In this document: one piece after another, positions 1 to 22,493 of the stretch
How the letters are laid out: every line of letters begins with the position of its first letter
How positions within the stretch are numbered: the first letter of the stretch is position 1
From: a virus
Virus record (IMG/VR): IMGVR_UViG_3300032282_003939
Location: 1-23,263 of that record
DNA: 23,263 nt
Direction: 5' to 3' (one strand)
Notes under the pieces: model-generated
The model's database searches: none
Seen by the model: only the letters and a program-made list of their open reading frames with translations
Told to the model about the DNA's origin: nothing
Translations under genes and position numbers: made by a program

Positions 1-36
1 ACGAAGCTCAGTAGCACCTACCAATCACCCGTAAAG

Positions 37-77
37 AAATACCCCTTTGTCTATCCGCAGGCTTAGGGGTATTTTTT
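37..77 (+). terminator. Rho-independent terminator of an upstream unit
   Basis: A perfect 10-bp stem (AAATACCCCT at 37-46 with AGGGGTATTT at 65-74) encloses an 18-nt loop and runs into a T tract at 72-78. It would end rightward transcription entering from the left of the window and insulate the operon that starts at 182. No complete gene is visible upstream of it. The only reading frames there are open fragments, one of which stops at 32-34. Confidence 0.8.
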
Positions 78-107
78 TATTTACGGCATAGTCAATCTCC
101 ATGCGAA

Positions 108-156
108 CCCGATTTTCGGGTGTCGGGCAAACTTGGGTGTCGGGCAGACCTGCCCG
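108..156 (+). promoter_or_regulatory. 5' leader with two copies of the TCGGGTGTCGGGC motif and a hairpin
   Basis: The 13-nt motif occurs at 116-128 (exact) and 133-145 (one mismatch, TT for TC). The second copy runs into a 6-bp hairpin, CGGGCA 141-146 with TGCCCG 151-156, with a 4-nt loop. Upstream, CCCGA 108-112 can pair with TCGGG 116-120. The same motif precedes the units at 3708 and 4611. All copies have the same orientation and lie 36-64 nt before an ATG that has a good SD. The motif may act on DNA as an operator or promoter element, or in the 5' UTR as RNA; the sequence does not decide which. Confidence 0.6.
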
Positions 157-181
157 CCATAACCAACAGGGAGACAACACC

Positions 182-655
182 ATGTCAATATCAAGCGAGG
201 TACTGTCACGAGGCGAGAACGCTTTGTATCAGTTAGACAAATCAAAAGGCATGGCCTTTGATTCACATAGTGCAAGGTTATTCCACATCGATGATGATGG
301 TTTATTCACACTCATTGACCACGACAGAGATGTCTATGACCTATTAGACAACGACGATGTAGCCAATGACTTGTCCAAGACAGACAACATCAGCATTGGT
401 GTGCTTACTTATGGTTGGGCATCACCATTGACTGATGACAACAGAGATGACCACACTCCGCCTAGTCAGCGTGATGACAGAAAGCGTGTCCGTGTGCTTG
501 TCACTGCTTGTGACCATGGCAAGTTCGTTACATTCCTAAGGTTTGAGGCAGACCCAGACACCGTAGATACACAAGGTGGTGGCGAAGGCTCAATGGCTGA
601 TGCAATTCAGCAACTAATCAACAAAATCCAAACAAAAAAGGCAGGCAACAAATGA
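182..655 (+). CDS. Unknown 157-aa protein, first gene of the MoxR/VWA operon
   Basis: I do not recognise this protein and propose no function. ATG 182 is chosen because AGGGAG at 168-173 lies 8 nt upstream; the frame stays open to ATG 101, but that codon has no SD and would put the leader motifs inside the gene. The product is soluble, has no membrane segment, and is acidic in its first two thirds, with Asp-rich stretches such as HIDDDG and LLDNDD. A mixed beta segment (VRVLVTACDHGKFVTFLRF) follows, then a basic C-terminus ending in KTKKAGNK-like residues. It overlaps the MoxR-like gene by 4 nt (ATGA), so the two are probably translationally coupled. As leading gene of the operon it may be an adaptor or substrate of the ATPase; that is inference from position only. 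Confidence 0.8.
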   Translation: MSISSEVLSRGENALYQLDKSKGMAFDSHSARLFHIDDDGLFTLIDHDRDVYDLLDNDDVANDLSKTDNISIGVLTYGWASPLTDDNRDDHTPPSQRDDRKRVRVLVTACDHGKFVTFLRFEADPDTVDTQGGGEGSMADAIQQLINKIQTKKAGNK

Positions 656-1407
656 CAACATCAACCCTTACTACTGGCTGGGAGACAGCCAATTTCGCAA
701 TGGCTAACGGCTTAGACCGTGTATTGCTTTACGGCAAGCCAGGCACAGGCAAGACCTACTTTGGTCTCAACTACCACCTAGGTACAAGCAAGTCGTACCG
801 CCTCATCTGCACAGACGAAATGACAGACGGCGACATGATCGGCAAGTACAAGCAGAACGACAACGGCATCTGGCGCTTTGAGGAAGGCGTAGCAATCAAG
901 GCATGGCGTACAGGTGGTCGTCTTGTTGTGGACGAGATCAATCGTGTGAACGGTGACATTGAGGCACGCCTCATGGCAATCATTGACACAGTCGCATCGT
1001 CATCGTTTGAGCACCCAGAAACTGGCGAGATTATTCGCCCAGCACAGGGCTTTAGCGTTGTTGCAACGATGAACGGTGAGCCAGATGACCTGTCTCCTGC
1101 TGTTCTTGACCGCCTTGTTGTTCGTGTAGAGATTGAGCAACCACATCCTGATGCTATTGCAGCATTGCCAGCCGAATTGCGAGACATTGCACTTGAGTAC
1201 GCCATGCGTGATGACGCAGATCGCTACTCGTTGCGTTCGTTCTTTGCTTTTGCTGGCTTGCTTAAGGCTAGTGGCAATCTAGAAGCGTCTGCCCATGTGT
1301 GCTTGCCCCGCATTGCTAAGAGCATTGTTGGCGCATTGTCAATCACGCAGTCAGAAGCGGTATCTGTTGAACGCCCTGTGGTAATCACAGAACCGAGCCC
1401 ATTCTGA
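652..1407 (+). CDS. MoxR-like AAA+ ATPase
   Basis: A 251-aa AAA+ ATPase of the MoxR/RavA/NorQ (AAA_5) type. Visible motifs are Walker A GKPGTGKT at residues 28-35, Walker B RLVVDEINR at 90-98, sensor 1 VVATMNG at 136-142 with Asn141, and LDR with a candidate arginine finger at 154. The segment SSFEHPETGE, about residue 117-126, fits the insertion hairpin region of the class. It starts at an ATGA overlap with the upstream gene and shares 1 nt (TGATG) with the following VWA gene. MoxR ATPases generally work with a VWA partner to remodel or mature target complexes, and the neighbour here is such a partner. The protein is a little shorter than typical cellular MoxR proteins of about 300 aa, with a reduced C-terminal lid. 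The family call is secure; the target is unknown. Confidence 0.93.
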   Translation: MTTSTLTTGWETANFAMANGLDRVLLYGKPGTGKTYFGLNYHLGTSKSYRLICTDEMTDGDMIGKYKQNDNGIWRFEEGVAIKAWRTGGRLVVDEINRVNGDIEARLMAIIDTVASSSFEHPETGEIIRPAQGFSVVATMNGEPDDLSPAVLDRLVVRVEIEQPHPDAIAALPAELRDIALEYAMRDDADRYSLRSFFAFAGLLKASGNLEASAHVCLPRIAKSIVGALSITQSEAVSVERPVVITEPSPF

Positions 1408-2750
1408 TGAACACACCCCGTCAGAGCGTAAAGCGCAATATTGTTGCGCCTGAAGTGCTACCTGACAGACCGTTGCTCAAGGAAAATACCTATCAGACCG
1501 GTGGAGAGGCATACTCCATCGACTCTGTAGGTGTTTCTTTTAGCACATCTGCTAAGAAAAAGCACCTTATTACAGCCCCAACTGGAGACAGCGATGTTGC
1601 AGAGACCTTACGCAGGTATGTTCTTGTTCGCAGTCGTTATGACTTGCCAGACGCAGCCAAGTATGCAAAGCGTTGGTCAGTGTCAGAGACATCAGTAGAA
1701 ACTGCTTGTCGCACACTTGCTAATGCTCGCTATTTCCATGCGTTTGGTCAAGACCCAAGCATTGGCACTACCGAAACCACTATCCTTGCGCGAGTGCTTA
1801 GCGAAGGCAACCCCCCAAAGGCTGCTATTCTTTCTGCACTTAGCCATAGCGGTACACAAGCGTTTGACGACTTGATGGGTAAAGTCGCAGACCCACAGTT
1901 AGTCATAGAGTTAAAAGAACTTGAGCAACAGATCATTTCTTTTCTTTATGACTATAACGCTGCTCGTGACTTGCCACTTATCAACTCACCTAACCCTCGT
2001 TATCAAAAGCGTGGCGTGAAAGAGTGGGCTTGGTATGTCAAGCACATTGACTCATTGGCTACAAACCAAGTGTCTGAGCAAAGGGGCAGGCTACAACAGA
2101 AGCAACAAGAGGCTGATGCACCGCAAAAGGCATACCCCAAGGACAGCAACCTCGTTGGCGACTGGGAACAACTTGTTGTTTCTAAGCCTGAACTAAGCAT
2201 CAACCACACAGGCAAGTTAGGACGCAGGACTATTGCGGCAGACAGTGGCAGAGAGATCCGCTACATCAACCGCATGGTTAGCGACCCAGACAGGCGTGTG
2301 TTCAGTCGCAAGACCAGAGCACTCGGTGGCGTTGTGTGCATAGATGCTTCTGGCTCTATGTCGTTGTCAGAGAGCGACCTAGATCGTTTGCTTAAGGCAT
2401 CGGCAGGCGCAACTGTGCTTATGTACTCAGGTGGTCTTGACAATCCATCTAAGCCAAATGTATGGGTTATTGCTAAGAAGGGTCGTATGGTTAGACACCT
2501 ACCAGATCCTCCTGGTGATAACGCTGTCGATGGTCCTGCGCTTGTCTATGCCTCATCACTCAGGGATCGTGGCTCACAGCCATTGATTTGGGTCAGCGAT
2601 GGCTATGTGACAGGTCGTAGGTCTGGCTCAAGCAACACCAACTTGCTCAATGACATAGAGATGATCCGTCGCCAGCACAAAGTTATTCAGGTGCGCAATG
2701 TCTATGAAGCAGAACAACTAATGAAGCGCCTACAAGGAGGTAGCAGATGA
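1407..2750 (+). CDS. VWA (von Willebrand A) domain protein, MoxR partner
   Basis: A 447-aa protein with a C-terminal VWA domain starting near residue 305. The MIDAS motif DxSxS is intact (Asp313-Ala-Ser315-Gly-Ser317 in CIDASGSMS), and a late strand IWVSDGYVTG with Asp398 matches the third metal-site element. The N-terminal two thirds match no family I know. Residues 66-110 look helical and could form a winged-helix-like fold, and 215-235 is Gln/Lys-rich. Its start overlaps the ATPase stop by 1 nt, and its end overlaps the next gene by 4 nt (ATGA). By analogy with RavA-ViaA, NorQ-NorD and CoxD-CoxE, it is expected to bind the ATPase and present a substrate through the MIDAS metal. The pairing is established for the families; the phage role is not known. 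Confidence 0.88.
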   Translation: MNTPRQSVKRNIVAPEVLPDRPLLKENTYQTGGEAYSIDSVGVSFSTSAKKKHLITAPTGDSDVAETLRRYVLVRSRYDLPDAAKYAKRWSVSETSVETACRTLANARYFHAFGQDPSIGTTETTILARVLSEGNPPKAAILSALSHSGTQAFDDLMGKVADPQLVIELKELEQQIISFLYDYNAARDLPLINSPNPRYQKRGVKEWAWYVKHIDSLATNQVSEQRGRLQQKQQEADAPQKAYPKDSNLVGDWEQLVVSKPELSINHTGKLGRRTIAADSGREIRYINRMVSDPDRRVFSRKTRALGGVVCIDASGSMSLSESDLDRLLKASAGATVLMYSGGLDNPSKPNVWVIAKKGRMVRHLPDPPGDNAVDGPALVYASSLRDRGSQPLIWVSDGYVTGRRSGSSNTNLLNDIEMIRRQHKVIQVRNVYEAEQLMKRLQGGSR

Positions 2751-3463
2751 GCAAGGACGATGAGTTTGATGTACTCCACCAGTTGGAGGCTATAGCAAAT
2801 GACGCTGGCAAGGTCATTGACGACGAGTGGAAGGCATTACAGATGCGCCTTATGCAAGAGTCAAGGGTTATCTCCCAGAACCTGTTCCAAGACCAAGGGG
2901 AGGCAGTTAGCGCTGTCCTTTGCGTTGGCTATCAGATTGACAAAGAGCAATTTGATGCTGACGATGGTGTAGAGCAGATTGGTCCTAAAGGTAGCGAATA
3001 CCCTACCTCTGGCGCTAACTCTGGCTATGCCCGTATGACACCTGCTGTTGGGGTCAAGTTGCCAGGGGAGATGTACAAGTTCCTTAGCGACAAGACCTTG
3101 GTTTGCTCGTTGTACGAGGTCACTAACTATGTGTCTTTGTTTATGCACGTCAAGTACAAGCAGTCACAACTCATAGCCATGACCACTCCAGCTGGGATAG
3201 CAATAACGCTAGAGCCCAAAGACGGAGAGGCTGTTCAGTTCTACCTCAAGTTTGACATCATTGACAAAGACATAGCCAAAGAGACATTGGCAAAACTCAG
3301 TGACAAGCAGAGAGAGGTAATCATGGAACTGTGTGAGGCGCAGATGATAGCCCCAGAACTCAAGGCAAAGCATCCAAAGATGTGGAACTTGATGATTGAG
3401 GCAATCAAAGAGAACGGCTCTAACGCATTTCTAAACGGAGACGACACGGAAGGAGATGAGTAA
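2747..3463 (+). CDS. Unknown 238-aa protein of the MoxR/VWA operon
   Basis: I do not recognise this protein. It starts at an ATGA overlap with the VWA gene and ends in TAATG shared with the micropeptide gene, so it is part of the same translationally coupled operon. AAGGAGG at 2732-2738 gives it a convincing SD. The product is soluble and mixed alpha/beta: a helical acidic N-terminus (residues 1-50), a beta-rich centre with several hydrophobic strands (SLFMHVKYKQSQLIAMTT and AVQFYLKFDII), a helical segment near 180-225 and an acidic tail (DDTEGDE). No catalytic motif is apparent. It could be a substrate, adaptor or effector of the MoxR/VWA pair; only the conserved gene order, if confirmed elsewhere, would support that. 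Confidence 0.8.
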   Translation: MSKDDEFDVLHQLEAIANDAGKVIDDEWKALQMRLMQESRVISQNLFQDQGEAVSAVLCVGYQIDKEQFDADDGVEQIGPKGSEYPTSGANSGYARMTPAVGVKLPGEMYKFLSDKTLVCSLYEVTNYVSLFMHVKYKQSQLIAMTTPAGIAITLEPKDGEAVQFYLKFDIIDKDIAKETLAKLSDKQREVIMELCEAQMIAPELKAKHPKMWNLMIEAIKENGSNAFLNGDDTEGDE

Positions 3464-3531
3464 TGGTCTGGTGGATAACCCTTGTGCTAGTTGTCGGCGC
3501 ATGGATTATCTACATCGATAGTGGTCGATAG
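3463..3531 (+). CDS. 22-aa single-span membrane micropeptide
   Basis: A very short frame beginning at the ATG of the TAATG that ends the preceding gene. AAGGAG at 3450-3455 is an excellent SD with 7-nt spacing. The peptide is almost entirely one hydrophobic helix: MVWW, then ITLVLVVGAWIIYI, ending in a short polar DSGR before TAG. Strong SD, coupled start and a coherent transmembrane composition with three Trp make chance less likely, although short frames always carry that risk. Such peptides often anchor or regulate a membrane complex. Here it might tether the MoxR/VWA machinery to the membrane or act on the host envelope; this is speculation from position. Confidence 0.6.
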   Translation: MVWWITLVLVVGAWIIYIDSGR

Positions 3532-3630
3532 CGAGAACCACTACCTATAGCACTGGTCGTCGCGTATGTGGAACCATACGCCCATACGCTGACGGCTGGT
3601 GTCTATGCAATACCCATGCTCGCCCTCATT
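3532..3630 (+). other. Intergenic segment with alternative hairpins
   Basis: No gene is seen here. GCGTATG 3562-3568 pairs perfectly with CATACGC 3575-3581 (6-nt loop) or equally with a second CATACGC at 3583-3589. GCGAG at 3531-3535 could pair with CTCGC at 3619-3623 to enclose the whole segment. There is no T tract, so a simple intrinsic terminator is not supported. TATGCAAT at 3604-3611 is a weak -10 candidate for the next unit. Confidence 0.35.
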
Positions 3631-3688
3631 TCGGGTGTCGGGCACAATGAAAACAGCGAGGAACGCCCTCGTAACGGCATAGATGCCG
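3631..3688 (+). promoter_or_regulatory. 5' leader with TCGGGTGTCGGGC motif and two hairpins
   Basis: The exact 13-nt motif is at 3631-3643. It is followed by a 5-bp hairpin CGAGG 3657-3661 with CCTCG 3667-3671, and a second CGGCA 3675-3679 with TGCCG 3684-3688. The SD AAGGAG is at 3695-3700 and the ATG at 3708. The order motif, hairpin, SD, ATG matches the leaders at 108-182 and 4548-4611. Confidence 0.55.
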
Positions 3689-3707
3689 AGAAACAAGGAG
3701 ATCAGTT

Positions 3708-4232
3708 ATGTTAGCCCATCAGTTTAGTGTTAGTAAGCCCCCAAGTAAGCCCAAACCATCAGTTGGCAAGAAGCAACTGATGCGCAATACCGTAGAAGCA
3801 GCGATGTCTTTTACCTTTAGTCATCTTGGCGAGTGGTGTCTAGTTGGCACATATCCAGTCCGTGGTGGTCAGCGCAAGAAGTTGGTTTATAACCATGCCA
3901 AGTACTACCGTGACAAATTGGAAACGCACTTTGCCGAGATGCTGAACTATCACGCTGACGCATATCCAGTCATGTGGAATATCCACTGGAACAAGAACAA
4001 AGCCCAGTACGAAGTCCGTGTTATCGCTGACTATCGCCCTGACTTTGCCTATAACGAGGCTGGTGAAGCCCCAGTTGTCAAGCAGTTTGAGGCTGATATG
4101 CAAGAGGCAAAGCGTTTGCTAGACGAGACAGAAGCCGATCTCTTGGCTATCCGTGATCGCTTGGTAGAGCAGAAGCAAACCAACGCTGTCAAGCAAGCAA
4201 TGGACAGCCTCTTCTTCGGTGGGCAGTCGTGA
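3708..4232 (+). CDS. Unknown 174-aa protein with C-terminal coiled coil
   Basis: I do not recognise this protein. ATG 3708 follows the SD AAGGAG with 7-nt spacing. The N-terminal 25 residues are Pro/Lys/Ser-rich and likely disordered. Residues 30-110 form a mixed domain rich in aromatic residues (GEWCLVGTYPVRGG, VMWNIHWNKNKAQYEVRVIA). Residues 122-165 are a charged helix with heptad-like spacing (FEADMQEAKRLLDETEADLL), consistent with a coiled coil and oligomerisation. The gene ends in a GTGA overlap with the following 55-aa gene. It opens the second unit that carries the shared leader motif. No membrane segment or enzymatic signature is visible. Confidence 0.8.
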   Translation: MLAHQFSVSKPPSKPKPSVGKKQLMRNTVEAAMSFTFSHLGEWCLVGTYPVRGGQRKKLVYNHAKYYRDKLETHFAEMLNYHADAYPVMWNIHWNKNKAQYEVRVIADYRPDFAYNEAGEAPVVKQFEADMQEAKRLLDETEADLLAIRDRLVEQKQTNAVKQAMDSLFFGGQS

Positions 4233-4396
4233 ACCGCCAGAAAGTACACAAAGCCATCAAGTATTGGCAGAGTGTGATGGATAGCGGTGTCAAAGAGTTC
4301 TACGACCCTGATTACAACCATGTCGGCTTAGTTAGCGACTTGGTGTACGAACTCAAGAGTGCTCTAGCCAATGACAAGGCTAAGTCAAGAGTGTAG
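4229..4396 (+). CDS. Unknown 55-aa protein, GTG start
   Basis: A short frame that starts with GTG in a 4-nt GTGA overlap with the upstream stop, the same coupling geometry used elsewhere in this genome. There is only a weak SD (GGTGGG about 4219-4224). The product is a basic, helical, soluble peptide beginning MNRQKVHKAIKYWQSVMDSG and containing an aromatic stretch EFYDPDYNHVGL, followed by a helix SDLVYELKSAL. No family is recognised. Its good amino-acid composition and coupled start favour a real gene. Confidence 0.6.
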   Translation: MNRQKVHKAIKYWQSVMDSGVKEFYDPDYNHVGLVSDLVYELKSALANDKAKSRV

Positions 4397-4398
4397 CG

Positions 4399-4494
4399 AT
4401 GGGCTACCACTACCACTGTCAGTGCGCATCCCCCATGTGCATTGGCAGTGGCATTAGTGCTACCGATTACACCACAAGTGATCTATGCCCATAG
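4399..4494 (+). CDS. Possible 31-aa Cys/His-rich peptide
   Basis: A short frame beginning 2 nt after the stop of the 55-aa gene (TAG, CG, ATG). The peptide starts MGYHYHCQCASPMC and ends LCP, giving four Cys (7, 9, 14, 30) and two His. This could bind a metal but matches no spacing I know. No convincing SD is present, so translation would depend on coupling. It may be chance; if it is not coding, 4397-4506 holds no gene. Confidence 0.3.
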   Translation: MGYHYHCQCASPMCIGSGISATDYTTSDLCP

Positions 4495-4506
4495 CCCATA
4501 GGCAAG

Positions 4507-4587
4507 GCTATGCGCCATAGCATATATATAAGGAATAAGCCCGTTTTTCGGGTGTCGGGTAAACTGAAGTAGTGAGGAGAACCTCAC
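4507..4587 (+). promoter_or_regulatory. Promoter-leader region with TCGGGTGTCGGGT motif
   Basis: A hairpin-forming repeat GCTATG 4507-4512 with CATAGC 4516-4521 is followed by an AT-rich TATATATA stretch at 4523-4530 that could serve as a -10. The 13-nt motif is at 4548-4560 with T in its last position. A 6-bp hairpin GTGAGG 4572-4577 with CCTCAC 4582-4587 (loop AGAA) precedes the SD AAGGAGA at 4599-4605. Over 26 nt (4540-4565) this copy differs from 108-133 at only two positions, which is strong evidence of a common element. Confidence 0.55.
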
Positions 4588-4610
4588 CTAAACCAAACAA
4601 GGAGACAGCA

Positions 4611-4862
4611 ATGAACGCTGTATGGTGCGTTATAGGCAATAATGGCAATAAGAAAATCTTTGGCTTGGCAGTAGCCGAGACGGAGAACCCAACGACAGGG
4701 GACACGGTAACGGCATATAACCGTCACGGTGCTTCACAGGTCAAGGTACTAGGTGCAATGGCAACTAATCCCGATGGATCAGCAATGTCCCGCAGTGTCA
4801 CGACAAGCGTGAACGGTATCCCTACCGCAATGAAGCAGGTCATCTTTACCGTTCAGCAATGA
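4611..4862 (+). CDS. Unknown 83-aa protein
   Basis: I do not recognise this small protein. ATG 4611 is chosen for its SD AAGGAGA at 4599-4605; the upstream in-frame ATG 4572 lies inside the leader hairpin and has no SD. The product looks beta-rich: MNAVWCVIGNNGNKKIFGLA, then repeated short strands separated by Gly/Asn turns, and a C-terminal strand QVIFTVQQ. It is soluble and close to neutral. It is a monocistronic unit followed by a strong hairpin at 4886-4923. Its private leader suggests it is made in quantity or under the same regulator as the two upstream units. Confidence 0.75.
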   Translation: MNAVWCVIGNNGNKKIFGLAVAETENPTTGDTVTAYNRHGASQVKVLGAMATNPDGSAMSRSVTTSVNGIPTAMKQVIFTVQQ

Positions 4863-4885
4863 CTAGACGGTAATGACCAAGTACT

Positions 4886-4923
4886 GGCACTATCTCAGTG
4901 GCGCAAGCCACTGGGGTAGTGCC
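4886..4923 (+). terminator. 17-bp hairpin with GCAA tetraloop after the left block
   Basis: Bases 4886-4902 pair with 4907-4923 as a continuous 17-bp helix with two G-U wobbles and a GCAA (GNRA) loop at 4903-4906. It begins 24 nt after the stop at 4862. Only TTT follows, so it is a poor classical intrinsic terminator, but many actinobacterial terminators lack a T tract. It could instead be an mRNA 3'-end stabiliser. A further weak stem AGCCCC 4952-4957 with GGGGCT 4977-4982 lies downstream. Confidence 0.55.
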
Positions 4924-4985
4924 TTTACAAGGGGGAGCCGGTATCCTAATTAGCCCCTCTCGACATCTGTATATTTGGGGCTCTT

Positions 4986-5009
4986 ATATATCACCAGATA
5001 TATCACTGG
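4986..5009. repeat. Tandem ATATATCAC repeat in the control region
   Basis: ATATATCAC occurs at 4986-4994 and 4998-5006, 12 nt apart, about one helical turn. Read on the minus strand, each copy is GTGATATAT, which is contained in the 13-nt GTGTGATATATTA found at the promoters near 7275 and 22370. The copies could be operator half-sites or leftward extended -10 boxes. On the minus strand, TTGGCG lies 17 nt before the TATATC of the right-hand copy. Confidence 0.45.
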
Positions 5010-5021
5010 GAGGCGTCGGCG

Positions 5022-5077
5022 CCAAAACAGAAAAACAAAAAAAATAAAAAAAAAAGAAGCACTCACTAGTGTGAGTG
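5022..5077 (-). terminator. Leftward intrinsic terminator
   Basis: CACTCAC 5060-5066 pairs with GTGAGTG 5071-5077 around a 4-nt loop. To its left on the + strand is a nearly pure A tract (about 5028-5058), which on the minus strand is a long T run following the hairpin. This is the standard layout of an intrinsic terminator for leftward transcription. No minus-strand gene is seen to its right in this window. Confidence 0.6.
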
Positions 5078-5178
5078 TGTAAAGCCCCCCACGGTTTACC
5101 ACCAATTGGGAGGAAGGTCGCCGTAGCCAATTTTTCTAGCCGACACCTAATTAGTGAAATGACGTTCACAACGCTGCT

Positions 5179-5197
5179 TGATCTAGTACATAGATCA
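5179..5197. promoter_or_regulatory. Operator-like dyad upstream of the terminase promoter
   Basis: TGATCTA 5179-5185 and TAGATCA 5191-5197 are perfect inverted 7-mers separated by GTACA. The site is about 95 nt upstream of the terminase -10 box. It could bind a dimeric regulator or be part of a packaging recognition site; nothing in the sequence distinguishes these. Confidence 0.35.
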
Positions 5198-5266
5198 TCA
5201 ACCCAGGTTCCCCTGTTTACTGCCCGCCTCATGCAAAAGAGGTACGCACGTGATTCTTGCCGGTTG

Positions 5267-5298
5267 TTGCACATGAGTGTACACCATCGTGTTACAAT
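5267..5298 (+). promoter_or_regulatory. Promoter of the terminase gene
   Basis: An extended -10, TG-T-TACAAT, ends at 5298 and lies 9 nt before ATG 5308. A weak -35 candidate TTGCAC is at 5267-5272 with a long 20-nt spacer. The expected transcription start is about 5305-5308, so the terminase mRNA would be leaderless or nearly so, consistent with the lack of any SD before the ATG. Confidence 0.5.
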
Positions 5299-5307
5299 TT
5301 CAAACAC

Positions 5308-7269
5308 ATGAAAAAAGGAAAAAGGGTTATCTCTGCTGAGGACCGCGCACTCTTTTGGCAGTCTAGGCAATCAGGAATGGGTATACGAGAGTGTGCTCGC
5401 ATATCAGGAATCTCTTATCAGACAGCATTGTCGTGGGTAAAAAAAGCTGAGACTATTAGTACTCAGATAGAACAAGACAAGCTAATGGGTGATGCAACTG
5501 GTGCTGGTGGTGGCAAACAGCGTGTCAATAGAGCAAACGTTGTTGAACGAGATATGCCACCGGTCATCCCACAGGGTAAATTGTGTGAACGTGCACAACG
5601 TGGGCTAGAAGATTTTGACTATTTCCGCCGTGTATACCTAGGCCGTGTGCCTTCTCCATGGCAAGTAGACGCTGCATACAAGATTGTAGAGATGCTGCAG
5701 CACCCAGAAAAGCAATTCTGTGTATTGAACGTACCACCTGGTGCTGGTAAATCAACTCTATTCCATGACGTAGCTGTGTGGATGATCGTAAAGAACCGCC
5801 ATATTCGAGTCATGATCGGGTCTGTATCGCAGACTTTGGCCAAGATGTATAGCCGTCGTATCCGTGAAACCCTAGAAAGGACCATCCCACTCAAGCCGGA
5901 CCCTGAAATGGTTAAGCGCGGACTGGCTATTGACGCTGAAGCATGCCTTGCAATTGACTATGGACGCTTTAGGCCATCTGCTTTGGGTGCTTTGTGGCGT
6001 GCAGAAGAGTTTATTGTGGAGCAATACATTGGAGAAGGCCTTGACAACAAGGAACCTACCGTGTCTGCGTACGGTATTGAGTCCGAATTCATCGGTCACC
6101 GTGCTGACTTGTGCTTATTTGACGACGTTGCGTCACCTGAGAACTCTAAAGAGTCCATTGCCAGGGACAAACTGCTAGAAAGATGGGACTCTATGGCTGA
6201 AGCCCGCTGTGATCCGGGCGGTTTGCTAGCTGTTATTGGTCAAAGGCTTGGCCCACTGGACCTTTACGCCCATTGCTTGGCCAAAACCTCGTACGAAATC
6301 GACGATGACACCTACACGGGTGAGGATGTCACCCAAAAAACGGACGATATAGAGCCAGTCAAGTCATACAAGTACAAGCACTTGATCTACAAGGCATATT
6401 ACGATGAACTTGACACCGGACCGGAGTCTCGAAAGATGACTGCACCAGCTTGGCCCAACGGACCGCTACTGGAACCATTCCGTTTGTCGTGGAAAGACCT
6501 ATCGTACGTAAAGCACAGCTCAATCAACAAGTTTAAAATTGTTTATCAGCAAGAAGATCTAGCAGAAGGCCACTACCTCATTGAGCGTGTGTGGGCAACA
6601 GGAGGTATTGGTAATGACGGAGTACTTTATCCAGGATGCATCGACAAAGACCGGTCGTATGGGTACATACCGCCAGGACTCGCGCCGCCGGTCATTAGTA
6701 TTGCTTCAGTCGACCCAAGCCCTACAGAGTTCTGGGGGATACAGTGGTGGCTTTATCAACCGGAGACTAATCTTCGATATCTAATTGAAATGGCTCGTAT
6801 CAAACTTACGGCCGAGGAGCTACTTGGATTTGATACACAGTCAAAAGCGTATTCGGGGATTATGGAAGAGTGGCAGAACACGTCTTTTGAGATGGGCTAC
6901 CCAATATCACACTGGATTGTGGAAGTAAACGCAGCCCAGCGATTCTTGCTAGCACACGACTTTATACGCAAGTGGCAAGCCCTGCATAACGTAAACATCG
7001 TTCCTCACACTACGTCTAGGAATAAGCTTGACGAAAGCCTTGGCATCGAAGCTTTGTTGCCACCGCTGTGGAGAACCGGACAAGTGCGCATTCCTAACAT
7101 GCGTGACAACTGGAAGACCATGGCGTTTGTAGATGAGATGAGTACATGGTCACGTGGTAAGAAACACGGAACCGACTTGGTGATGGCACACTGGTTCTCT
7201 GAGTTGCATGTTCCACAAATGATTAACCCGTCACCACCGCCGAAACAGTGGCGTCCGTCGTGGTATTAG
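5308..7269 (+). CDS. terL: Terminase large subunit with N-terminal helix-turn-helix
   Basis: The DNA-packaging motor, 653 aa from ATG 5308. Residues 8-45 form a helix-turn-helix (GIRECARISGISYQTALSWV), a DNA-recognition part usually carried by a separate small terminase. The ATPase has Walker A PPGAGKST (143-150) and Walker B LCLFDD (268-273). The RNase H-like nuclease has candidate acidic residues Asp469 (SVDPSP), Glu539 (IVEVNAAQ) and Asp623 (HGTDLV). It cleaves concatemers and pumps DNA through the portal. The upstream in-frame TTG at 5257 would add 17 residues, but it lies upstream of the predicted -10 and has no SD; the ATG sits just after that -10. No separate small terminase gene is visible nearby. 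Confidence 0.93.
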   Translation: MKKGKRVISAEDRALFWQSRQSGMGIRECARISGISYQTALSWVKKAETISTQIEQDKLMGDATGAGGGKQRVNRANVVERDMPPVIPQGKLCERAQRGLEDFDYFRRVYLGRVPSPWQVDAAYKIVEMLQHPEKQFCVLNVPPGAGKSTLFHDVAVWMIVKNRHIRVMIGSVSQTLAKMYSRRIRETLERTIPLKPDPEMVKRGLAIDAEACLAIDYGRFRPSALGALWRAEEFIVEQYIGEGLDNKEPTVSAYGIESEFIGHRADLCLFDDVASPENSKESIARDKLLERWDSMAEARCDPGGLLAVIGQRLGPLDLYAHCLAKTSYEIDDDTYTGEDVTQKTDDIEPVKSYKYKHLIYKAYYDELDTGPESRKMTAPAWPNGPLLEPFRLSWKDLSYVKHSSINKFKIVYQQEDLAEGHYLIERVWATGGIGNDGVLYPGCIDKDRSYGYIPPGLAPPVISIASVDPSPTEFWGIQWWLYQPETNLRYLIEMARIKLTAEELLGFDTQSKAYSGIMEEWQNTSFEMGYPISHWIVEVNAAQRFLLAHDFIRKWQALHNVNIVPHTTSRNKLDESLGIEALLPPLWRTGQVRIPNMRDNWKTMAFVDEMSTWSRGKKHGTDLVMAHWFSELHVPQMINPSPPPKQWRPSWY

Positions 7270-7281
7270 TGTGATATATTA
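7269..7281 (+). promoter_or_regulatory. Extended -10 promoter for the 1583-aa gene (leaderless)
   Basis: GTGTGATATATTA contains an extended -10, TG-A-TATATT (TATATT 7275-7280). The GTG start codon begins at 7287, 7 nt downstream, exactly where transcription should start, and there is no SD. No good -35 is visible. The identical 13 nt recur at 22364-22376 before the scaffold gene. Confidence 0.55.
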
Positions 7282-7286
7282 GCGAC

Positions 7287-10200
7287 GTGGCTAAAGGAAA
7301 AAAGCAGGAAGATCCTAACAAAGTCGCGCAACGTAAAGCGGAGCGCGTAGCATTCGTACAGTCACATCCCAACCTTGCTCCAGAGGTGGCACGTCAACGT
7401 TATTATGTGCAGACTCGTGCAGCCGAACTGGAAGCAGCTGGCAAACAGGTTGATCGTGCGGCACTACGTGAAAAATTTCAAACCGGTGGTGTAACTCGTG
7501 AAGGTTTTTATACACCAGCAGACGTAACCCGTTTTAATTCTGCAAATAACGGAAGCTCACTTGCTGACTCTAAGAGCACATCAACACCACCTGTTGTTTC
7601 TAATGTTCCCGTAGCACCAAGTGCTACAAATGTGCCAACTCCGGTTAGGCGAGAAACAAGTTCTGTTAAGACTCCTTCTTCTTCGTATCAAGCCCCACAA
7701 ACAACTACTTCTCTTGGGCAGGTCGTTCAACCGCCTACGTCCTATATGGACAAACAACCTGGCACACCAGTACGTGGTGGAGAACCAGGCCGTGGAGTAA
7801 CGCCTCCTGCTCTTGTTCGTCCACAAGGAACACCAGTACCCGGTGGAGAACCTCGTCCTCCAGTATGGGCATCCGGAGAACCCGTAATTGGCAATATTAC
7901 AAGACCAGGGCAAATGTACGCCGCAGAAAAAAATGATCTCCGCGAATTCAAGGCTGCTACTGCTCGGGTTTCACCACAAGCACCTGCCAATCCAAAAGCC
8001 TTGCGTCAACAACAGCAAACTAGATGGCAAACTGTTGACGTCCCACGAATTCAAGCTCAAATGCGCAGAGACAACCCTATCTATGCAGCTAGACAAGCAA
8101 AGATTGATGCCGGATTTGTAGAAGCTCCATACGACTGGACAAATCTTTATAAAACTGCTGCTGGTGGAACTGTGATAGCTGCCGAAATGTTTGGTATGAG
8201 AGGCGGACCTGTTGGCGGTGCTCTTGCTGCCGGAACTGCATACAACTTAACAAACAGACTCGGAAACTTGTTGGAACAAAAAACAGGTTTTGGTGGTGTT
8301 GAAGGAGATCCTGGTTTTAAAGGTGACACAAGTGCAAAAGGATTTGCAATTATTGCTGGAGGATCTCTTGCTGGTTCTGGGATTGGAGCTCTTGGAGCTA
8401 AGGCTATTTCTAAAATCCCAGGCATCCCATCAGCAATCGGGAAAAGCTGGAGGGCAGTACAGAAGTGGGCTGATGACACACCTCAGGTTCCAGCAACTCC
8501 TTGGAAAGAAGCTGGAGCTGGCAGTCCTGGAATATCAACAGGCATAACACCAAGAACCCCATGGAGAGAAGGACCAATCACTGGAGGAAGTAAATCACCA
8601 CGTCGAGTTGGTGCTCCTAAAGTTGAAGTCGAAACACCAAAGCCAACAAAAATTGATTTGCCTGGTGAAACACAAACCGAATCTGGAATTATTATTCCAG
8701 CACCAAGTACCAGAGCAAGAGCTGGAAGAACAGCTGCAGAAAATCAAACACTTGATGAGATGGCTGCAACTAATTACAACGCATTTGATGCAGTTACTGG
8801 CAAAAAAGGATCATCGGAACCACTATCTCTTGGTGAATCAAAAGCTGCAACGACCAAAGCTATGGCTGAAGATGGTGTTGAAGAGTTAACTCCTCGTCAA
8901 ATCGCTGCTCGAAAAGGCGCTGCTACAAGGAAAGCAAATAAGGAAGCAGCTCTTAAACTGCAAGAAACAAATGTTGAAGTGAAGGGTCCAGAACCAACCA
9001 ATCTTGGAGATGAATTTGGTGTTGTGCATTTTGGGCCAAAGGAACCTCAATTTTCTGAAATAGACCCTAGGACTGTTGAGGTTGATTTAACCGCTCCAGA
9101 AAATAAACATTTGTTTAATGACAAGGGCGAAAGAATTTATTTGAAGTATGAGCATGATCCATCAATTCCAAAAGATGAGTGGCTAAATGCACCAGAACCA
9201 GCAGTCACTGCACCTGAGGCTCCAAACAAATTAGCTCGTAAGCCATTTGAAACAAATGCTCAATACGACTCTCGCATGAGGGCTGAGACGCTAAAAAACT
9301 CTGGTTCCGTAACAAAGATCGACGCTGGCATGGACCTTCCGCGCTTGACAGGCAAAGATAAAGTTGTTGGACAAGTAGAAGCTGGTATGTCTCGTAGCAA
9401 CAGACTGTCATTTGTTGACGACATGAGTGGTGAATCACGACCAAGATTTGGTGTTGTACAGGGAGAGTCTCCAGAACGACTTGCAATGATGCGCAATCAT
9501 CCTGCATTTACTTCAAAGCTTCCTGAATCACCAGCAAATTTGGCTGAAGTAAAAGCTCCACGTATGCGTGATCGTTTTGCTGACATTAATGCAGCTGGTG
9601 AATTCGATGCTATGACTCCACAAGGTTTCCCAATGAGTGAACCAGGTGAGACGGTAAGGCAATTCAACGAACGTGTAAATAGGTTCCAGGCTGCTAGGGG
9701 CAAGCCAACGGTTTCGCAAGAAGGAAACTATCCGGTTAGTGGAGCCGCACCAGAGGCACCAACTCAAGCGCCAAAGAGCCTGGAAGGAAACGTTGAACCA
9801 AAACGCCCTTCTGTAAACAAGTTTGGTCAGCGACTAAAAGCTGGGGCAAAAATTAACCCTGATACGGGTGAATTCCATAACGTAAAGATTGATCCAACTA
9901 CTGGTGAAGAAGCGTTTGTGATGCCACGTGTAAAGGGTCAACAGCGAACTAACGCTGAAAAGCAAGCTGCAAAACGATTGAATCAAAAAGTTGCAGTTGA
10001 AGTTAAAGAAGTACCTGGTGCTGTAAAGGGCGAATTTACGTTTGCAGGTGAAACAATTCAGGGTACAAAGACCGTTCTACCTAGGGGTGTGAGTGGAACC
10101 GGAAAATTTGTTGGTGAAAACATTCCATCAGATTCTTCGTTGCTAAGAATGAGTGCGGAAGAACGAGTTGCATTTGCTCAGGCAAACCCAAAGATGGACA

Positions 10201-12038
10201 TAGAGGGATGGGCTTCAAAGAATCTTTCTCCAGATGAGCAACAACTGTTCAAGAATCTTCGTGATGCACAAGGAACACGTGCTAGTCGTCGAGTCGCAGA
10301 GCCAGTCAAAGGCAAGAGAGCAATGAAGCCTGGCAGTGAACTTGCAGCCTATGAGCAACGTTACACAGAAATTTTAAAGAACCAAGGAGAAATCAACCAC
10401 GTTTCTTTCATGCGTTCAAAGCAGCAAGTAGCACTTGAAAGAGAAATTGAAAACGCTTTTGGTACTGATGCAATGGTTGCACTTCGTAATCGATTTGCAA
10501 CTGCAGCTGAATCAATTCCTACATCTGGCATTGGCGTAGAAGCCGCACCTGCTTCATTCTCTGAAGTATTACCGTCACAACTTCCTCAAGAACTCCCAGT
10601 AAAACCTGGTGGGAATTTACGCGAACAAGCAGCGCAGTTGTTTAATAAAGATGGATTATTGAAGGGCAAGACTGGACCTGGCCGTGCACGTAGGTGGCAG
10701 CAAGTAAAAGAAAGCTCATGGTTCCGTGAGCTAGTAGCCAAAGAGCCTACATTTGCAAACTACCTAATGAAGCAAAACGCCGATCTTGCTGCTGGTTACA
10801 GGGACATCAGTTTGTCTCAGGGTATTGGTGGTCCTCGTACACCAAGGCTTATGGGTCAAGAAAGATATGCAGGCAAACTTACAGAAGAACAAGCTGCAGC
10901 TCAAATAGCAAGAGAAGAATTGCGTACCGCAAACGCAGCAACAAGCACTGGGGCATTGGCTGAGTCAAGAGATGCTCGACGCGCCACGAGCCAGTTATTC
11001 CCTGCAGAAGACGCTGCATTTGGGCAAATCAACCAAGCTCGAATTGCTCGTGAAACTGGAGTGTCGCTTACTCCAGAACAGCAATCAGTTCTAAAAGACT
11101 TTGGTGTTCTTGACCCATCTGGAAGCTTGACTGCAACGTATTCTGACATTGCTGCTGTCCGAAGGGAAATTGCTCAACCGATACGTCCTGGAACACGTGT
11201 TGCTCCAGAACTATCAAACGAAGTTCTTGTTGCTAGGAAGCAAGCATTTTACGATCAGTTCGGTGAAGCTCCAGCAAAAGATAAAGCAAACAGTAAGGGT
11301 TGGATGAAAGACCAGTGGTTGCAAAAGAAAGAAGAATATATGGGGGCTCTTATGGATGCTCCAGCAACTTCTACTATTTTGAATCCAGAACCATTCTCGA
11401 CTCGAATTGACCCAAACCTTGTAGATCCAAACATGCCTATTAGGCCTGAAGCTATTGAAAACGCTTCTAAGTGGAGGGCTGAACAGCAAAAAGCTGCTGT
11501 TAAAGCTGCAGAAAAACAATCAGCTCAAGCAAAACTTACAGCTGAAACAGAAGCTGCTCGCAAGGCCGGACTGTTAAAAGAACCAAACATTGATGATTTC
11601 TTGAACCCAAGGCCAGCAAGAAACGTTCCTCCTCCAACGCTTGAGCAGATGAAACAACGATTCTTGATTGAAGAACAAACACGCCGTGAGGGGCTGGCAC
11701 GAGCAGCAGCAAAAGCAAAGGCTGCATCTTTTGAGGTAAAAACAAATAACCCATTCGAGCAACTTGGAAAATACGATCCAAAAACAGACACTTACATTGA
11801 AGACATTCTTCATCCTACTGGCTCGGTAATGAGGATAGAAACAAAACTTGGAATCGGTCCACCTTCACCTCAAGACAAGACTAAGTTCTTTATTCAAGAA
11901 AGAAACTTCAGCTGGCCATCACGCAACGAATCTGCAAAGATGACTGCTTCGGAAGCTGAGGCTCTTATGGAAGATTTCAAAAAGACTGAGCTAACAAATA
12001 TGCAAGAAGTTCTTAAAGACTGGATGAGCGGCGACTAA
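7287..12038 (+). CDS. Giant 1583-aa putative virion protein between terminase and portal
   Basis: I do not recognise a family. The frame starts with GTG 7287 (MAKGKK), with no SD, directly after a -10 box, so it is probably leaderless. Seen in order: a charged helical N-terminus (1-85), a Pro/Thr/Ser-rich linker (about 95-220) with an imperfect GTPVxGGEP repeat, a Gly/Ala-rich hydrophobic region (about 285-380, for example GGPVGGALAAGTAYN and IIAGGSLAGSGIGALGA), a long low-complexity acidic/Pro region, a more ordered part around 1090-1360, and a Lys/Glu/Ala-rich coiled-coil stretch (about 1395-1490). It overlaps the portal gene by 1 nt. Position and composition suggest a capsid-internal or ejection protein, the Gly/Ala-rich segments possibly contacting membrane. 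No peptidoglycan-hydrolase, protease or polymerase motif was seen. Confidence 0.75.
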   Translation: MAKGKKQEDPNKVAQRKAERVAFVQSHPNLAPEVARQRYYVQTRAAELEAAGKQVDRAALREKFQTGGVTREGFYTPADVTRFNSANNGSSLADSKSTSTPPVVSNVPVAPSATNVPTPVRRETSSVKTPSSSYQAPQTTTSLGQVVQPPTSYMDKQPGTPVRGGEPGRGVTPPALVRPQGTPVPGGEPRPPVWASGEPVIGNITRPGQMYAAEKNDLREFKAATARVSPQAPANPKALRQQQQTRWQTVDVPRIQAQMRRDNPIYAARQAKIDAGFVEAPYDWTNLYKTAAGGTVIAAEMFGMRGGPVGGALAAGTAYNLTNRLGNLLEQKTGFGGVEGDPGFKGDTSAKGFAIIAGGSLAGSGIGALGAKAISKIPGIPSAIGKSWRAVQKWADDTPQVPATPWKEAGAGSPGISTGITPRTPWREGPITGGSKSPRRVGAPKVEVETPKPTKIDLPGETQTESGIIIPAPSTRARAGRTAAENQTLDEMAATNYNAFDAVTGKKGSSEPLSLGESKAATTKAMAEDGVEELTPRQIAARKGAATRKANKEAALKLQETNVEVKGPEPTNLGDEFGVVHFGPKEPQFSEIDPRTVEVDLTAPENKHLFNDKGERIYLKYEHDPSIPKDEWLNAPEPAVTAPEAPNKLARKPFETNAQYDSRMRAETLKNSGSVTKIDAGMDLPRLTGKDKVVGQVEAGMSRSNRLSFVDDMSGESRPRFGVVQGESPERLAMMRNHPAFTSKLPESPANLAEVKAPRMRDRFADINAAGEFDAMTPQGFPMSEPGETVRQFNERVNRFQAARGKPTVSQEGNYPVSGAAPEAPTQAPKSLEGNVEPKRPSVNKFGQRLKAGAKINPDTGEFHNVKIDPTTGEEAFVMPRVKGQQRTNAEKQAAKRLNQKVAVEVKEVPGAVKGEFTFAGETIQGTKTVLPRGVSGTGKFVGENIPSDSSLLRMSAEERVAFAQANPKMDIEGWASKNLSPDEQQLFKNLRDAQGTRASRRVAEPVKGKRAMKPGSELAAYEQRYTEILKNQGEINHVSFMRSKQQVALEREIENAFGTDAMVALRNRFATAAESIPTSGIGVEAAPASFSEVLPSQLPQELPVKPGGNLREQAAQLFNKDGLLKGKTGPGRARRWQQVKESSWFRELVAKEPTFANYLMKQNADLAAGYRDISLSQGIGGPRTPRLMGQERYAGKLTEEQAAAQIAREELRTANAATSTGALAESRDARRATSQLFPAEDAAFGQINQARIARETGVSLTPEQQSVLKDFGVLDPSGSLTATYSDIAAVRREIAQPIRPGTRVAPELSNEVLVARKQAFYDQFGEAPAKDKANSKGWMKDQWLQKKEEYMGALMDAPATSTILNPEPFSTRIDPNLVDPNMPIRPEAIENASKWRAEQQKAAVKAAEKQSAQAKLTAETEAARKAGLLKEPNIDDFLNPRPARNVPPPTLEQMKQRFLIEEQTRREGLARAAAKAKAASFEVKTNNPFEQLGKYDPKTDTYIEDILHPTGSVMRIETKLGIGPPSPQDKTKFFIQERNFSWPSRNESAKMTASEAEALMEDFKKTELTNMQEVLKDWMSGD
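7762..7852 (+). repeat. Imperfect 26-nt direct repeat encoding GTPVxGGEP
   Basis: Bases 7762-7787 and 7827-7852 match at 23 of 26 positions, 65 nt apart and in frame. Both encode GTPV(R or P)GGEP in the proline-rich linker of the 1583-aa protein. This looks like a small in-frame duplication within a disordered region. Confidence 0.7.
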
Positions 12039-13801: not shown

Positions 13802-14157
13802 TGGCGCAGCCAGTAAATAATAGAACAGATCTTTTGAACCCACCAACCTATGGTGACAAAGTTAAATTGCAACGTGCTCAGCAGGCTGTACCTGCTGGGC
13901 CAAGTCCTGTTGATGCACAGCGTCAAGCTCCTGCTGTGCAGCCCGGATCACTTCCGCCATTGCTTGGTCCAACAAATCGACCGAATGAGCCAATTACCGC
14001 TGGTGCAAATTTTGGTCCTGGACCATCGGCTTTACAAGCGGGTGTACCATTAAGAAGTGAAAGCCAGTTTGCTGTTGACGAACTTCGAGCAATTGCACAA
14101 CTGCACCCAACTGAAGAACTAACAATGATGCTTGATAAGTGGGGATTGCTTAAGTGA
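13801..14157 (+). CDS. 118-aa proline-rich protein after portal
   Basis: I do not recognise a family. The start ATG overlaps the portal stop by 1 nt, with SD GGAGGA at 13790-13795. About the first 85 residues are Pro/Gln/Ala/Gly-rich and probably disordered. The last 30 form an amphipathic helical segment (FAVDELRAIAQLHPTEELTM) ending in WGLLK. It overlaps the next gene by 4 nt (GTGA). A disordered protein with one C-terminal helix between portal and giant protein could be an adaptor or portal accessory factor; this is inference from order. Confidence 0.75.
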   Translation: MAQPVNNRTDLLNPPTYGDKVKLQRAQQAVPAGPSPVDAQRQAPAVQPGSLPPLLGPTNRPNEPITAGANFGPGPSALQAGVPLRSESQFAVDELRAIAQLHPTEELTMMLDKWGLLK

Positions 14158-22344: not shown

Positions 22345-22376
22345 TTGACACGCTCTTATATGCGTGTGATATATTA
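22345..22376 (+). promoter_or_regulatory. Promoter of the scaffold-capsid unit with operator-like dyad
   Basis: A consensus -35 TTGACA (22345-22350) is followed by TATATT (22370-22375) preceded by TG-A, an extended -10, with 19-nt spacing; the alternative GATATA (22368-22373) gives 17 nt. ACACGC 22348-22353 and GCGTGT 22362-22367 form a perfect 6-bp inverted repeat inside the promoter, positioned like a repressor or activator site. Bases 22364-22376 equal 7269-7281. Confidence 0.75.
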
Positions 22377-22381
22377 AGCAC

Positions 22382-22442
22382 ATCTCATTAGAGATAACTG
22401 TTGGAGAGTCCCTCGACTTCAACATGTAAAAAGAGGTGAGAT
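22382..22442 (+). promoter_or_regulatory. Structured scaffold leader with possible SD switch
   Basis: ATCTC 22382-22386 pairs with GAGAT 22391-22395 (loop ATTA). Alternatively ATCTCA 22382-22387 pairs with TGAGAT 22437-22442, which overlaps the SD-like GAGGTGAG at 22433-22440. A second stem joins GTTG and GAGTC (22400-22410) to GACTT and CAAC (22415-22423). ATG TAA at 22424-22429 is a start-stop codon pair. The pairings are small and unproven. Confidence 0.4.
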
Positions 22443-22493
22443 TTGCAGCCGGTCTGGAACCTCCAACCAGAACGTGGGCAGAAGGAGTGGGTC

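Follow-up and report, generated by a model that had tools for sequence, protein, structure and literature searches.

The 23,263-base virus record IMGVR_UViG_3300032282_003939 of IMG/VR, analyzed here over its whole length (positions 1 to 23,263; the window), carries a short asymmetric motif, TCGGGTGTCGGG, ahead of three gene blocks, and sequence comparison places this motif within a 25-base pair (bp) element, in which a lineage-specific block of approximately 19 bp is joined to a σ70-type −10 hexamer (CAAACT, CACAAT, and TAAACT in the window). These sites are very probably promoters of some kind, and the explanation that we favor, with some caution, is a small regulon of −35-less promoters that would be read by the host RNA polymerase together with a co-evolving factor. 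The exact motif copies would be the upstream halves of phage promoters, with one switch sequence before three gene blocks. The block is different in each related phage, which, together with its position before the three gene blocks, suggests that a common regulator turns them on together.

Exactly three copies of TCGGGTGTCGGG are present in the window, starting at 116, 3631, and 4548, all on the plus strand and all in gaps between genes. The gaps, as drawn, make up 5.4% of the window, and by a simple area argument the chance that three random sites would all lie in plus-strand gaps is about 2e-5. Allowing up to two mismatches gives five matches, compared with a mean of 0.57 and a maximum of 4 in 100 shuffles; the fifth match, at 15882, is inside the 14154 to 19256 reading frame. 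No exact copy lies within a gene, and a random scatter of the motif inside genes is thus rejected. The initial annotation described a 13-nucleotide motif confined to plus-strand gaps (exact at 116 to 128, 3631 to 3643, and 4548 to 4560, and with one mismatch at 133 to 145) and located 36 to 64 nucleotides before an ATG, and this is borne out, with distances of 53, 36, 64, and 50 nucleotides for the copies in order, as are the similarity of copies 1 and 4 (24 of 26 positions between 108 to 133 and 4540 to 4565) and the hairpin after each site. The repeat is real, but the conserved unit is longer than 13 nucleotides and runs on through the −10-like hexamer. Likewise, the copies at 116, 3631, and 4548 stand as sites, but copy 2 (133 to 145, plus strand) is probably not a separate one: it overlaps the 5′ arm of the first leader hairpin (CGGGCA-GACC-TGCCCG, 141 to 156), and at its place the four closest relatives largely keep the letters and relatives L010 to L013 have a hairpin of other letters and no motif copy.

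The promoter-like architecture emerges from a register analysis in which 23 sites from seven lineages were aligned on the 3′ end of the motif. Leaders are named D, A, B, and C according to whether they precede the gene immediately 5′ of the ATPase block, the ATPase block itself, the 174-amino acid gene, or the 83-amino acid gene, respectively, and W in site names denotes the window. The hexamer has an A at position 2 in 23/23 sites and a T at position 6 in 21/23 (both exceptions are in L016), and in leader D of L010 it is a perfect TATAAT; the predicted +1, seven bases past the hexamer, is a G in 19/23. All of the window's sites are on the plus strand. Promoter A comprises a block at 109 to 127, defined by sequence comparison and containing motif copy 1 (116 to 127), the −10-like hexamer CAAACT (128 to 133), and a leader hairpin at approximately +1 (141 to 156), which is the one overlapping copy 2. 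Promoter B has its block at 3624 to 3642 with motif copy 3 (3631 to 3642), the hexamer CACAAT (3643 to 3648), and a hairpin at approximately +1 (3656 to 3672), and promoter C has its block at 4541 to 4559 with motif copy 4 (4548 to 4559), the hexamer TAAACT (4560 to 4565), and a hairpin at +1 (4572 to 4587). Because it lies directly upstream of the −10-like hexamer and the predicted start site, the motif itself is probably not transcribed.

The leader hairpins are placed with the same regularity. A stem of 5 bp or more, beginning between the fourth and the ninth base after the hexamer, is present in 27 of 37 non-redundant leaders, compared with a mean of 2.2 and a maximum of 7 in 500 shuffle runs; counted from the listing, these are 15 of 22 close-set and 12 of 15 distant leaders. 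The letters of the hairpin vary between leaders, so that structure and register are kept and the letters are not.

A −35 is missing from these promoters, the best TTGACA match at a spacing of 15 to 19 being 2 or 3 of 6 in all 37 of 37 close-set sites. Among 15 distant leaders, the match is 5 or 6 of 6 in seven, 4 in one, and 2 or 3 in seven. Upstream of the ATPase in the distant relatives L142, L144, and L150 we find TTGACG-N17-CATACT with a spacer ending in GGTCGGG, and the motif therefore corresponds to the spacer of a σ70 promoter. By this comparison the window's lineage would have lost the −35 or never have acquired it. Several of these genomes do carry TTGACA promoters at other places, and the loss therefore looks specific to the motif promoter class. 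In the window this contrast site is TTGACA-N19-TATATT (TTGACA at 22345 and TATATT at 22370; 22345 to 22375, plus strand), with a hairpin at approximately +1, ahead of the gene at 22443/22494, and TTGACA at a spacing of 16 to 19 precedes this virion-region gene leader in 6/6 genomes tested (the window, G001, G004, G007, G009, and G012), and in G013 by eye. A rule combining −35, −10, and hairpin gave 59 units on plus strands and 24 on minus strands, many inside genes, and single matches thus prove little. As a separate observation, in both repeated leaders of L016 (TTGACG at 916 and 3895) and of L123 (hexamers at 5761 and 10098) no more than 7 bp lie between TTGAC and the −10-like hexamer that follows it, which shortens the usual distance by one turn of the helix.

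Relatives of the window were found in IMG/VR by its AAA ATPase (48 loci, and 80 kept of 160 by ATPase alignment) and by its 83-amino acid protein (three loci), and searches there with the 174-amino acid and 447-amino acid proteins returned none. The exact 18-base motif-plus-hexamer pattern occurs in one 232-kb contig (L004) of the viral collection, a match that may be chance at that collection size. Where long, the relatives are 36 to 41 kb and carry whiB. Nine contigs were read whole, with the repeated 11-mers listed for each genome. Absence of the motif from the leaders of close relatives had been named in advance as counting against it; the exact 12-mer is indeed absent from the four closest relatives (93% identity), yet these have TCGGCGGTCGGG, with small variations, in the same leaders, and each close lineage has its own version there. 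Several relatives have their own repeated word in the corresponding leaders D, A, B, and C, and in G007 and G009 (approximately 41 kb) a 20-nucleotide pattern with up to three mismatches occurs at four places each, all on the plus strand and all in these four leaders. Not all four are found everywhere, with two sites in G011 and L016 and three in G015, and the window shows three, as leader D would lie to its left.

The block changes in concert within each genome. Identity of the 19-base block is 0.891 between different leaders of the same genome (n = 29), a value that is partly built in, the sites having been found as repeats, and it is 0.474 for the same leader in other lineages (n = 58) and 0.484 where leader and genome both differ (n = 166); none of 2,000 label shuffles matches this pattern. 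The independent evidence is that a given leader is no more alike in two genomes than an unrelated pair of leaders is. The flanks (20 bases further upstream and 20 after the hexamer) have identities of 0.27 to 0.36 in all three groups and no such pattern, and gene conversion would be expected to copy these too. The simplest cause, judging from the sequences, would be one trans-acting reader per genome.

Read 5′ to 3′, the proposed unit would open with a strong hairpin or a terminator at which the preceding gene block ends, followed by the block of approximately 19 bp (−13 to about −31), in which TCGG/CGG is repeated, and by a −10 hexamer of the form YANNNT. Six bases then lead to the +1, which is mostly a G, and a 5′ RNA hairpin, a Shine-Dalgarno sequence, and the start codon complete the unit. 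Sequence comparison establishes the architecture, its register, the lack of a −35, and the concerted change, whereas we infer promoter activity, an activator and its likely identity, a role for the hairpin, and the timing of expression. Host RNA polymerase carrying the principal sigma factor would open the −10, and because there is no −35 at a spacing of 15 to 19 the 19-bp block would have to take its place, most likely through a factor contacting sigma region 4 or RNA polymerase, by analogy with AsiA/MotA. Because the block changes jointly wherever it occurs in a genome, the reading factor is probably phage encoded. Protection of the mRNA end is the probable role of the 5′ hairpin, and the common regulator would switch the three blocks on together. 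The initial annotation offered a phage regulator or RNA-level control; the concerted change makes a trans-acting regulator likely, and RNA-level control by the motif is not upheld.

Our leading candidate for the reader, put forward tentatively from the sequences, is a phage WhiB-like protein. WhiB (PF02467) is present in 21/23 relatives' records, the two without it being 7- to 8-kb fragments, and the one phage WhiB compared has as its nearest solved sequences WhiB1 and a WhiB of entries 8dy7/8dy9. In its full form, the proposal would be that the phage WhiB-like protein captures the host principal sigma and makes the −35-less promoter class, whose GC-rich recognition box lies directly against the −10 and co-evolves with the protein, and we consider this possible but doubtful. 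In a first set, GVWGG/GIWGG in WhiB appeared linked to −35 loss; this link was rejected, as L138, L142, and L144 have GVWGG and keep the −35, and L134, which lacks a −35 by eye, has GIWGG. A second possible candidate is a small conserved protein found in 8/8 genomes searched, with five predicted helices (predicted local distance difference test score of 85) and a C-terminal helix that looks like that of a helix-turn-helix; a structure search with it gave no fold match at E ≤ 0.001.

Several observations weigh against a −35-less regulon with its own activator, and against WhiB as the reader. Seven of the 15 distant leaders (placed by eye) are without a −35, so the loss reaches beyond the window's lineage, and the TTGACA contrast promoter is not universal, with none at that place in G011 and G015. 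Position 1 of the hexamer is C in 12/23 sites, which is unusual for a −10, and the start sites at approximately +1 are predictions from the letters of the DNA. The folding energy of the 45 nucleotides after the hexamer (z −1.41, 37 leaders) has no excess over an upstream control (z −1.49); hairpin stability alone is no evidence, and the hairpin register is. A simple −35/−10 scan of positions 1 to 5400 is silent at all three sites and gives 2 sites in total versus 6.1 in shuffles, this consensus scan being blind to −35-less promoters and to long-loop hairpins (its loop limit is 8). A fixed rule (hexamer, hairpin, Shine-Dalgarno sequence, and paired 19-base blocks) applied to 43 further, unseen contigs found plus-strand pairs in only three (two lineages), with none on the other strand and none in reversed sequence, and it recovered 8/24 contigs already seen, one pair (in L103) looking false. 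The rule is specific, yet most further relatives are without the repeated class in that form, and the finding thus applies to the part of the family to which the window belongs. As to the reader, a WhiB gene is not seen in the window's phage, presumably because the window is a fragment starting downstream (its own record was outside the PF02467 search), and relatives that retain a −35 in their promoters also have WhiB-like proteins.

The host RNA polymerase alone might read these sites, as a −10 type with an upstream CGG recognized by sigma or β′ and with no activator. A nearly invariant G at each of the two bases before the hexamer (23/23 and 19/23) fits this, as does the CGG just before the hexamer in distant relatives that keep a −35. 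We consider it unlikely, however, as a host-read element should be the same across related phages, and here the whole 19-bp block shifts in concert in each genome, an objection that is weaker if the lineages infect different hosts; in addition, the base three positions ahead of the hexamer is not a T in any of the 23 sites, and there is thus no TGN extended −10.

The block could instead be an operator for a phage repressor acting over promoters, in the manner of cluster A stoperators or of a Cro/CI-like switch. Up to four near-identical promoter-overlapping sites per genome would suit such a role, and repression is plausible in the wider family given the boxes beside the same promoters in some relatives. 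These boxes (GAAC-N4-GTTC or near), which we take to be LexA-type, are at 28125, 31847, and 31862 in G015 (reverse complement), at 5901 and 9052 in L039, at 11462 and 11477 in G009 (reverse complement), and in a leader of L034, and the leaders concerned may be damage controlled in those relatives. A repressor nevertheless leaves the missing −35 in 37/37 close-set sites without explanation, the sites are on one strand at a single fixed distance from the −10, and the searches, which covered only part of the relatives' proteins, named neither a repressor nor an integrase. We regard an operator as very unlikely.

It is highly improbable that the motif acts as RNA within the leader, whether through protein binding or through control of translation or antitermination. 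Its position 36 to 64 nucleotides before ATGs led by Shine-Dalgarno sequences, with a hairpin after it, is what such a role would require, but the hairpin and the predicted +1 are downstream of motif and hexamer with their register kept, the motif is kept as primary sequence although W_B, G001_B, and G001_C no longer have an upstream CCCGA pairing with it, and there is no Rfam match at the gathering threshold. We also rejected a palindromic operator or RNA hairpin formed by self-pairing of the motif (CCCGA..TCGGG), which is present at W_A, G001_D, G001_A, and L009 A to C, broken at the same three sites, and shortened at W_C. A WhiA-type GTGTC is in the window's motif and was discarded, being absent from the motifs of G001 and G004. 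Finally, it is just as improbable that the motif serves a polymerase or sigma factor of the phage's own as a promoter: the element is contiguous, approximately 25 bp long, and ends near the predicted start, and two Planktophila phages do encode a sigma-70 factor (PMC10202952), but the hexamer is σ70-like, sigma region 2 or 4 is absent from 12/12 records with positive controls, and T7-type polymerase is absent from 12/12 records in a search in which no control was positive and from G000, G001, and G009 in a re-run on four records in which T7 was positive.

Each of the three promoters is preceded by a hairpin that may close the upstream gene block. Just upstream of promoter A is an intrinsic-terminator-like hairpin with a U run (TTTTTTT; 38 to 78, plus strand; −17.8 kcal/mol, z −5.1), which the simple terminator scan, with its loop limit of 8, did not list. 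Long terminator-like hairpins without a U run are located on the plus strand between block A and promoter B (3546 to 3607; −33.3 kcal/mol, z −4.8) and between block B and promoter C (4408 to 4459; −35.1 kcal/mol for 4394 to 4460, z −5.4). A 60-nucleotide segment of −15 kcal/mol or better is upstream of 23/23 sites (a count without shuffle control), the weakest being at the four leaders D (−16 to −20) and leader B of L010 (−15.6). The simple scan of 1 to 5400 gave 7 terminators versus 4.8 in shuffles.

The contrast promoter also has a leader of its own. The approximately 69 nucleotides at 22382 to 22450 are conserved in 9/9 genomes (W, G001, G004, G007, G009, G011, G012, G013, and G015), with a stem both arms of which differ, by eye, from one lineage to another (TGTTG/CAACA, CATTG/CAATG, and CACAG/CTGTG) and a possible pseudoknot (CCCTC/GAGG), also placed by eye. 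Rfam has no family for it at gathering, with one weak overlapping-neighbor match (E 0.47) at 22461 to 22487, and it is possibly an undescribed structured leader RNA. The sequence GTGTGATATATTA occurs twice in the window (7269 to 7281 and 22364 to 22376), the second copy holding the −10 of the TTGACA promoter; G001 and G004 likewise have two copies each, and seven other records have none.

The window codes for an AAA ATPase and an adjacent protein of unknown function, as well as for a terminase and a portal protein. Block A, on the plus strand like the others, has a first gene of 157 amino acids and unknown function (182 to 655), the AAA ATPase (652 to 1407; PF07728, 4.7e-15; phrog_16448, 2.2e-68), a 447-amino acid protein of unknown function (1407 to 2750; phrog_33218), and a closing gene for 238 amino acids (2747 to 3463); block B begins with the 174-amino acid gene (3708 to 4232) and block C has the 83-amino acid gene (4611 to 4862), both unknown. 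There are two very long reading frames, at 7287 to 12038 (1,583 amino acids; no family in a PHROG search) and 14154 to 19256 (1,700 amino acids; no family in a Pfam search). Upstream of the terminase gene (5119 to 5147) is a conserved stretch, CGCCGTAGC..TTTCTAGCCGACACC, shared, of nine records searched, with G007 and G009, and G009 has a 127-base end repeat. No near DNA match to the window was found among 50,697 GenBank phage records, in which its ATPase has 27 to 33% identity in 3 records and its terminase less than 60% in 457. ATPase alignment against genomes of 84,980 species gave 15 loci with 24 to 47% identity over part of the protein only. WhiB-like proteins are exclusive to actinobacteria (PMC10202952), and because its relatives encode them, the window's phage probably infects actinobacteria.

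Phages without their own polymerase or sigma factor must redirect the host RNA polymerase, and the role of WhiB-like genes in actinobacterial phages is largely open and needs further experiments (PMC8612146). A defined promoter-like set, with two to four members found per record and a box that changes in concert with lineage, makes it testable which protein reads the box, and the cassette of terminator, promoter, and 5′ hairpin provides a rule by which transcription units can be recognized in uncultured members of this phage group. If true, reading by WhiB would be an actinobacterial counterpart of T4 sigma appropriation and would give phage WhiB proteins a defined target.

The initial annotation likened the motif to the stoperators of L5 and the start-associated sequences of cluster K phages, a comparison that does not hold. 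Cluster A (L5) stoperators are many asymmetric sites for one repressor, mostly in one orientation and within transcribed regions, where they block elongation. The elements here are also repeated asymmetric sites, probably for one regulator, but there are three exact sites, all at one distance from the −10. Cluster K start-associated sequences are 13-bp asymmetric repeats, mostly in one orientation before phage genes, that lie immediately upstream of gene starts at 11 to 19 copies per genome with one sequence across subclusters (PMC3203893). Our 13-nucleotide repeat resembles them in asymmetry, single orientation, and location before phage genes, but is lineage specific, 36 to 64 nucleotides upstream, directly 5′ of a −10-like hexamer and away from the start codon, and only two to four sites are found per relative's record. 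The elements are neither stoperators nor start-associated sequences.

Planktophila phages E7, F5, and kin (actinophages of 'Ca. Nanopelagicales') have genomes of approximately 39 kb, a whiB-like gene, and GC contents near 45% (PMC10202952), and the window's relatives, at 36 to 41 kb where long and carrying whiB, are similar, a resemblance and not an established relationship. Promoters of this kind are undescribed in the portion consulted of that paper on Planktophila phages, and a literature search restricted to open-license PMC papers turned up none on such −35-less promoters. A WhiB-like (Wbl) protein binds region 4 of σA and regulates with RNA polymerase, with WhiB7 binding A/T-rich DNA upstream of the −35 and WhiB3 contacting G/C pairs (PMC10245118). 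The relatives of the window encode a Wbl protein; unlike the A/T-rich stretch of WhiB7 promoters upstream of the −35, the block here is G/C rich and nearer the −10, and there is no −35. In the T4 middle promoters the host −10 is kept, the −35 is replaced by a phage-specific box, and several promoters form one switch (PMC2988021 and PMC6755090), and the window's sites appear similar, as judged by sequence, in keeping a −10 and having a phage-specific box in place of the −35. However, the T4 MotA box is 12 ± 1 bp from the −10, whereas the window's block abuts it, and because the box lies elsewhere the window's promoters would be T4-like in logic and not members of the T4 middle promoter family.

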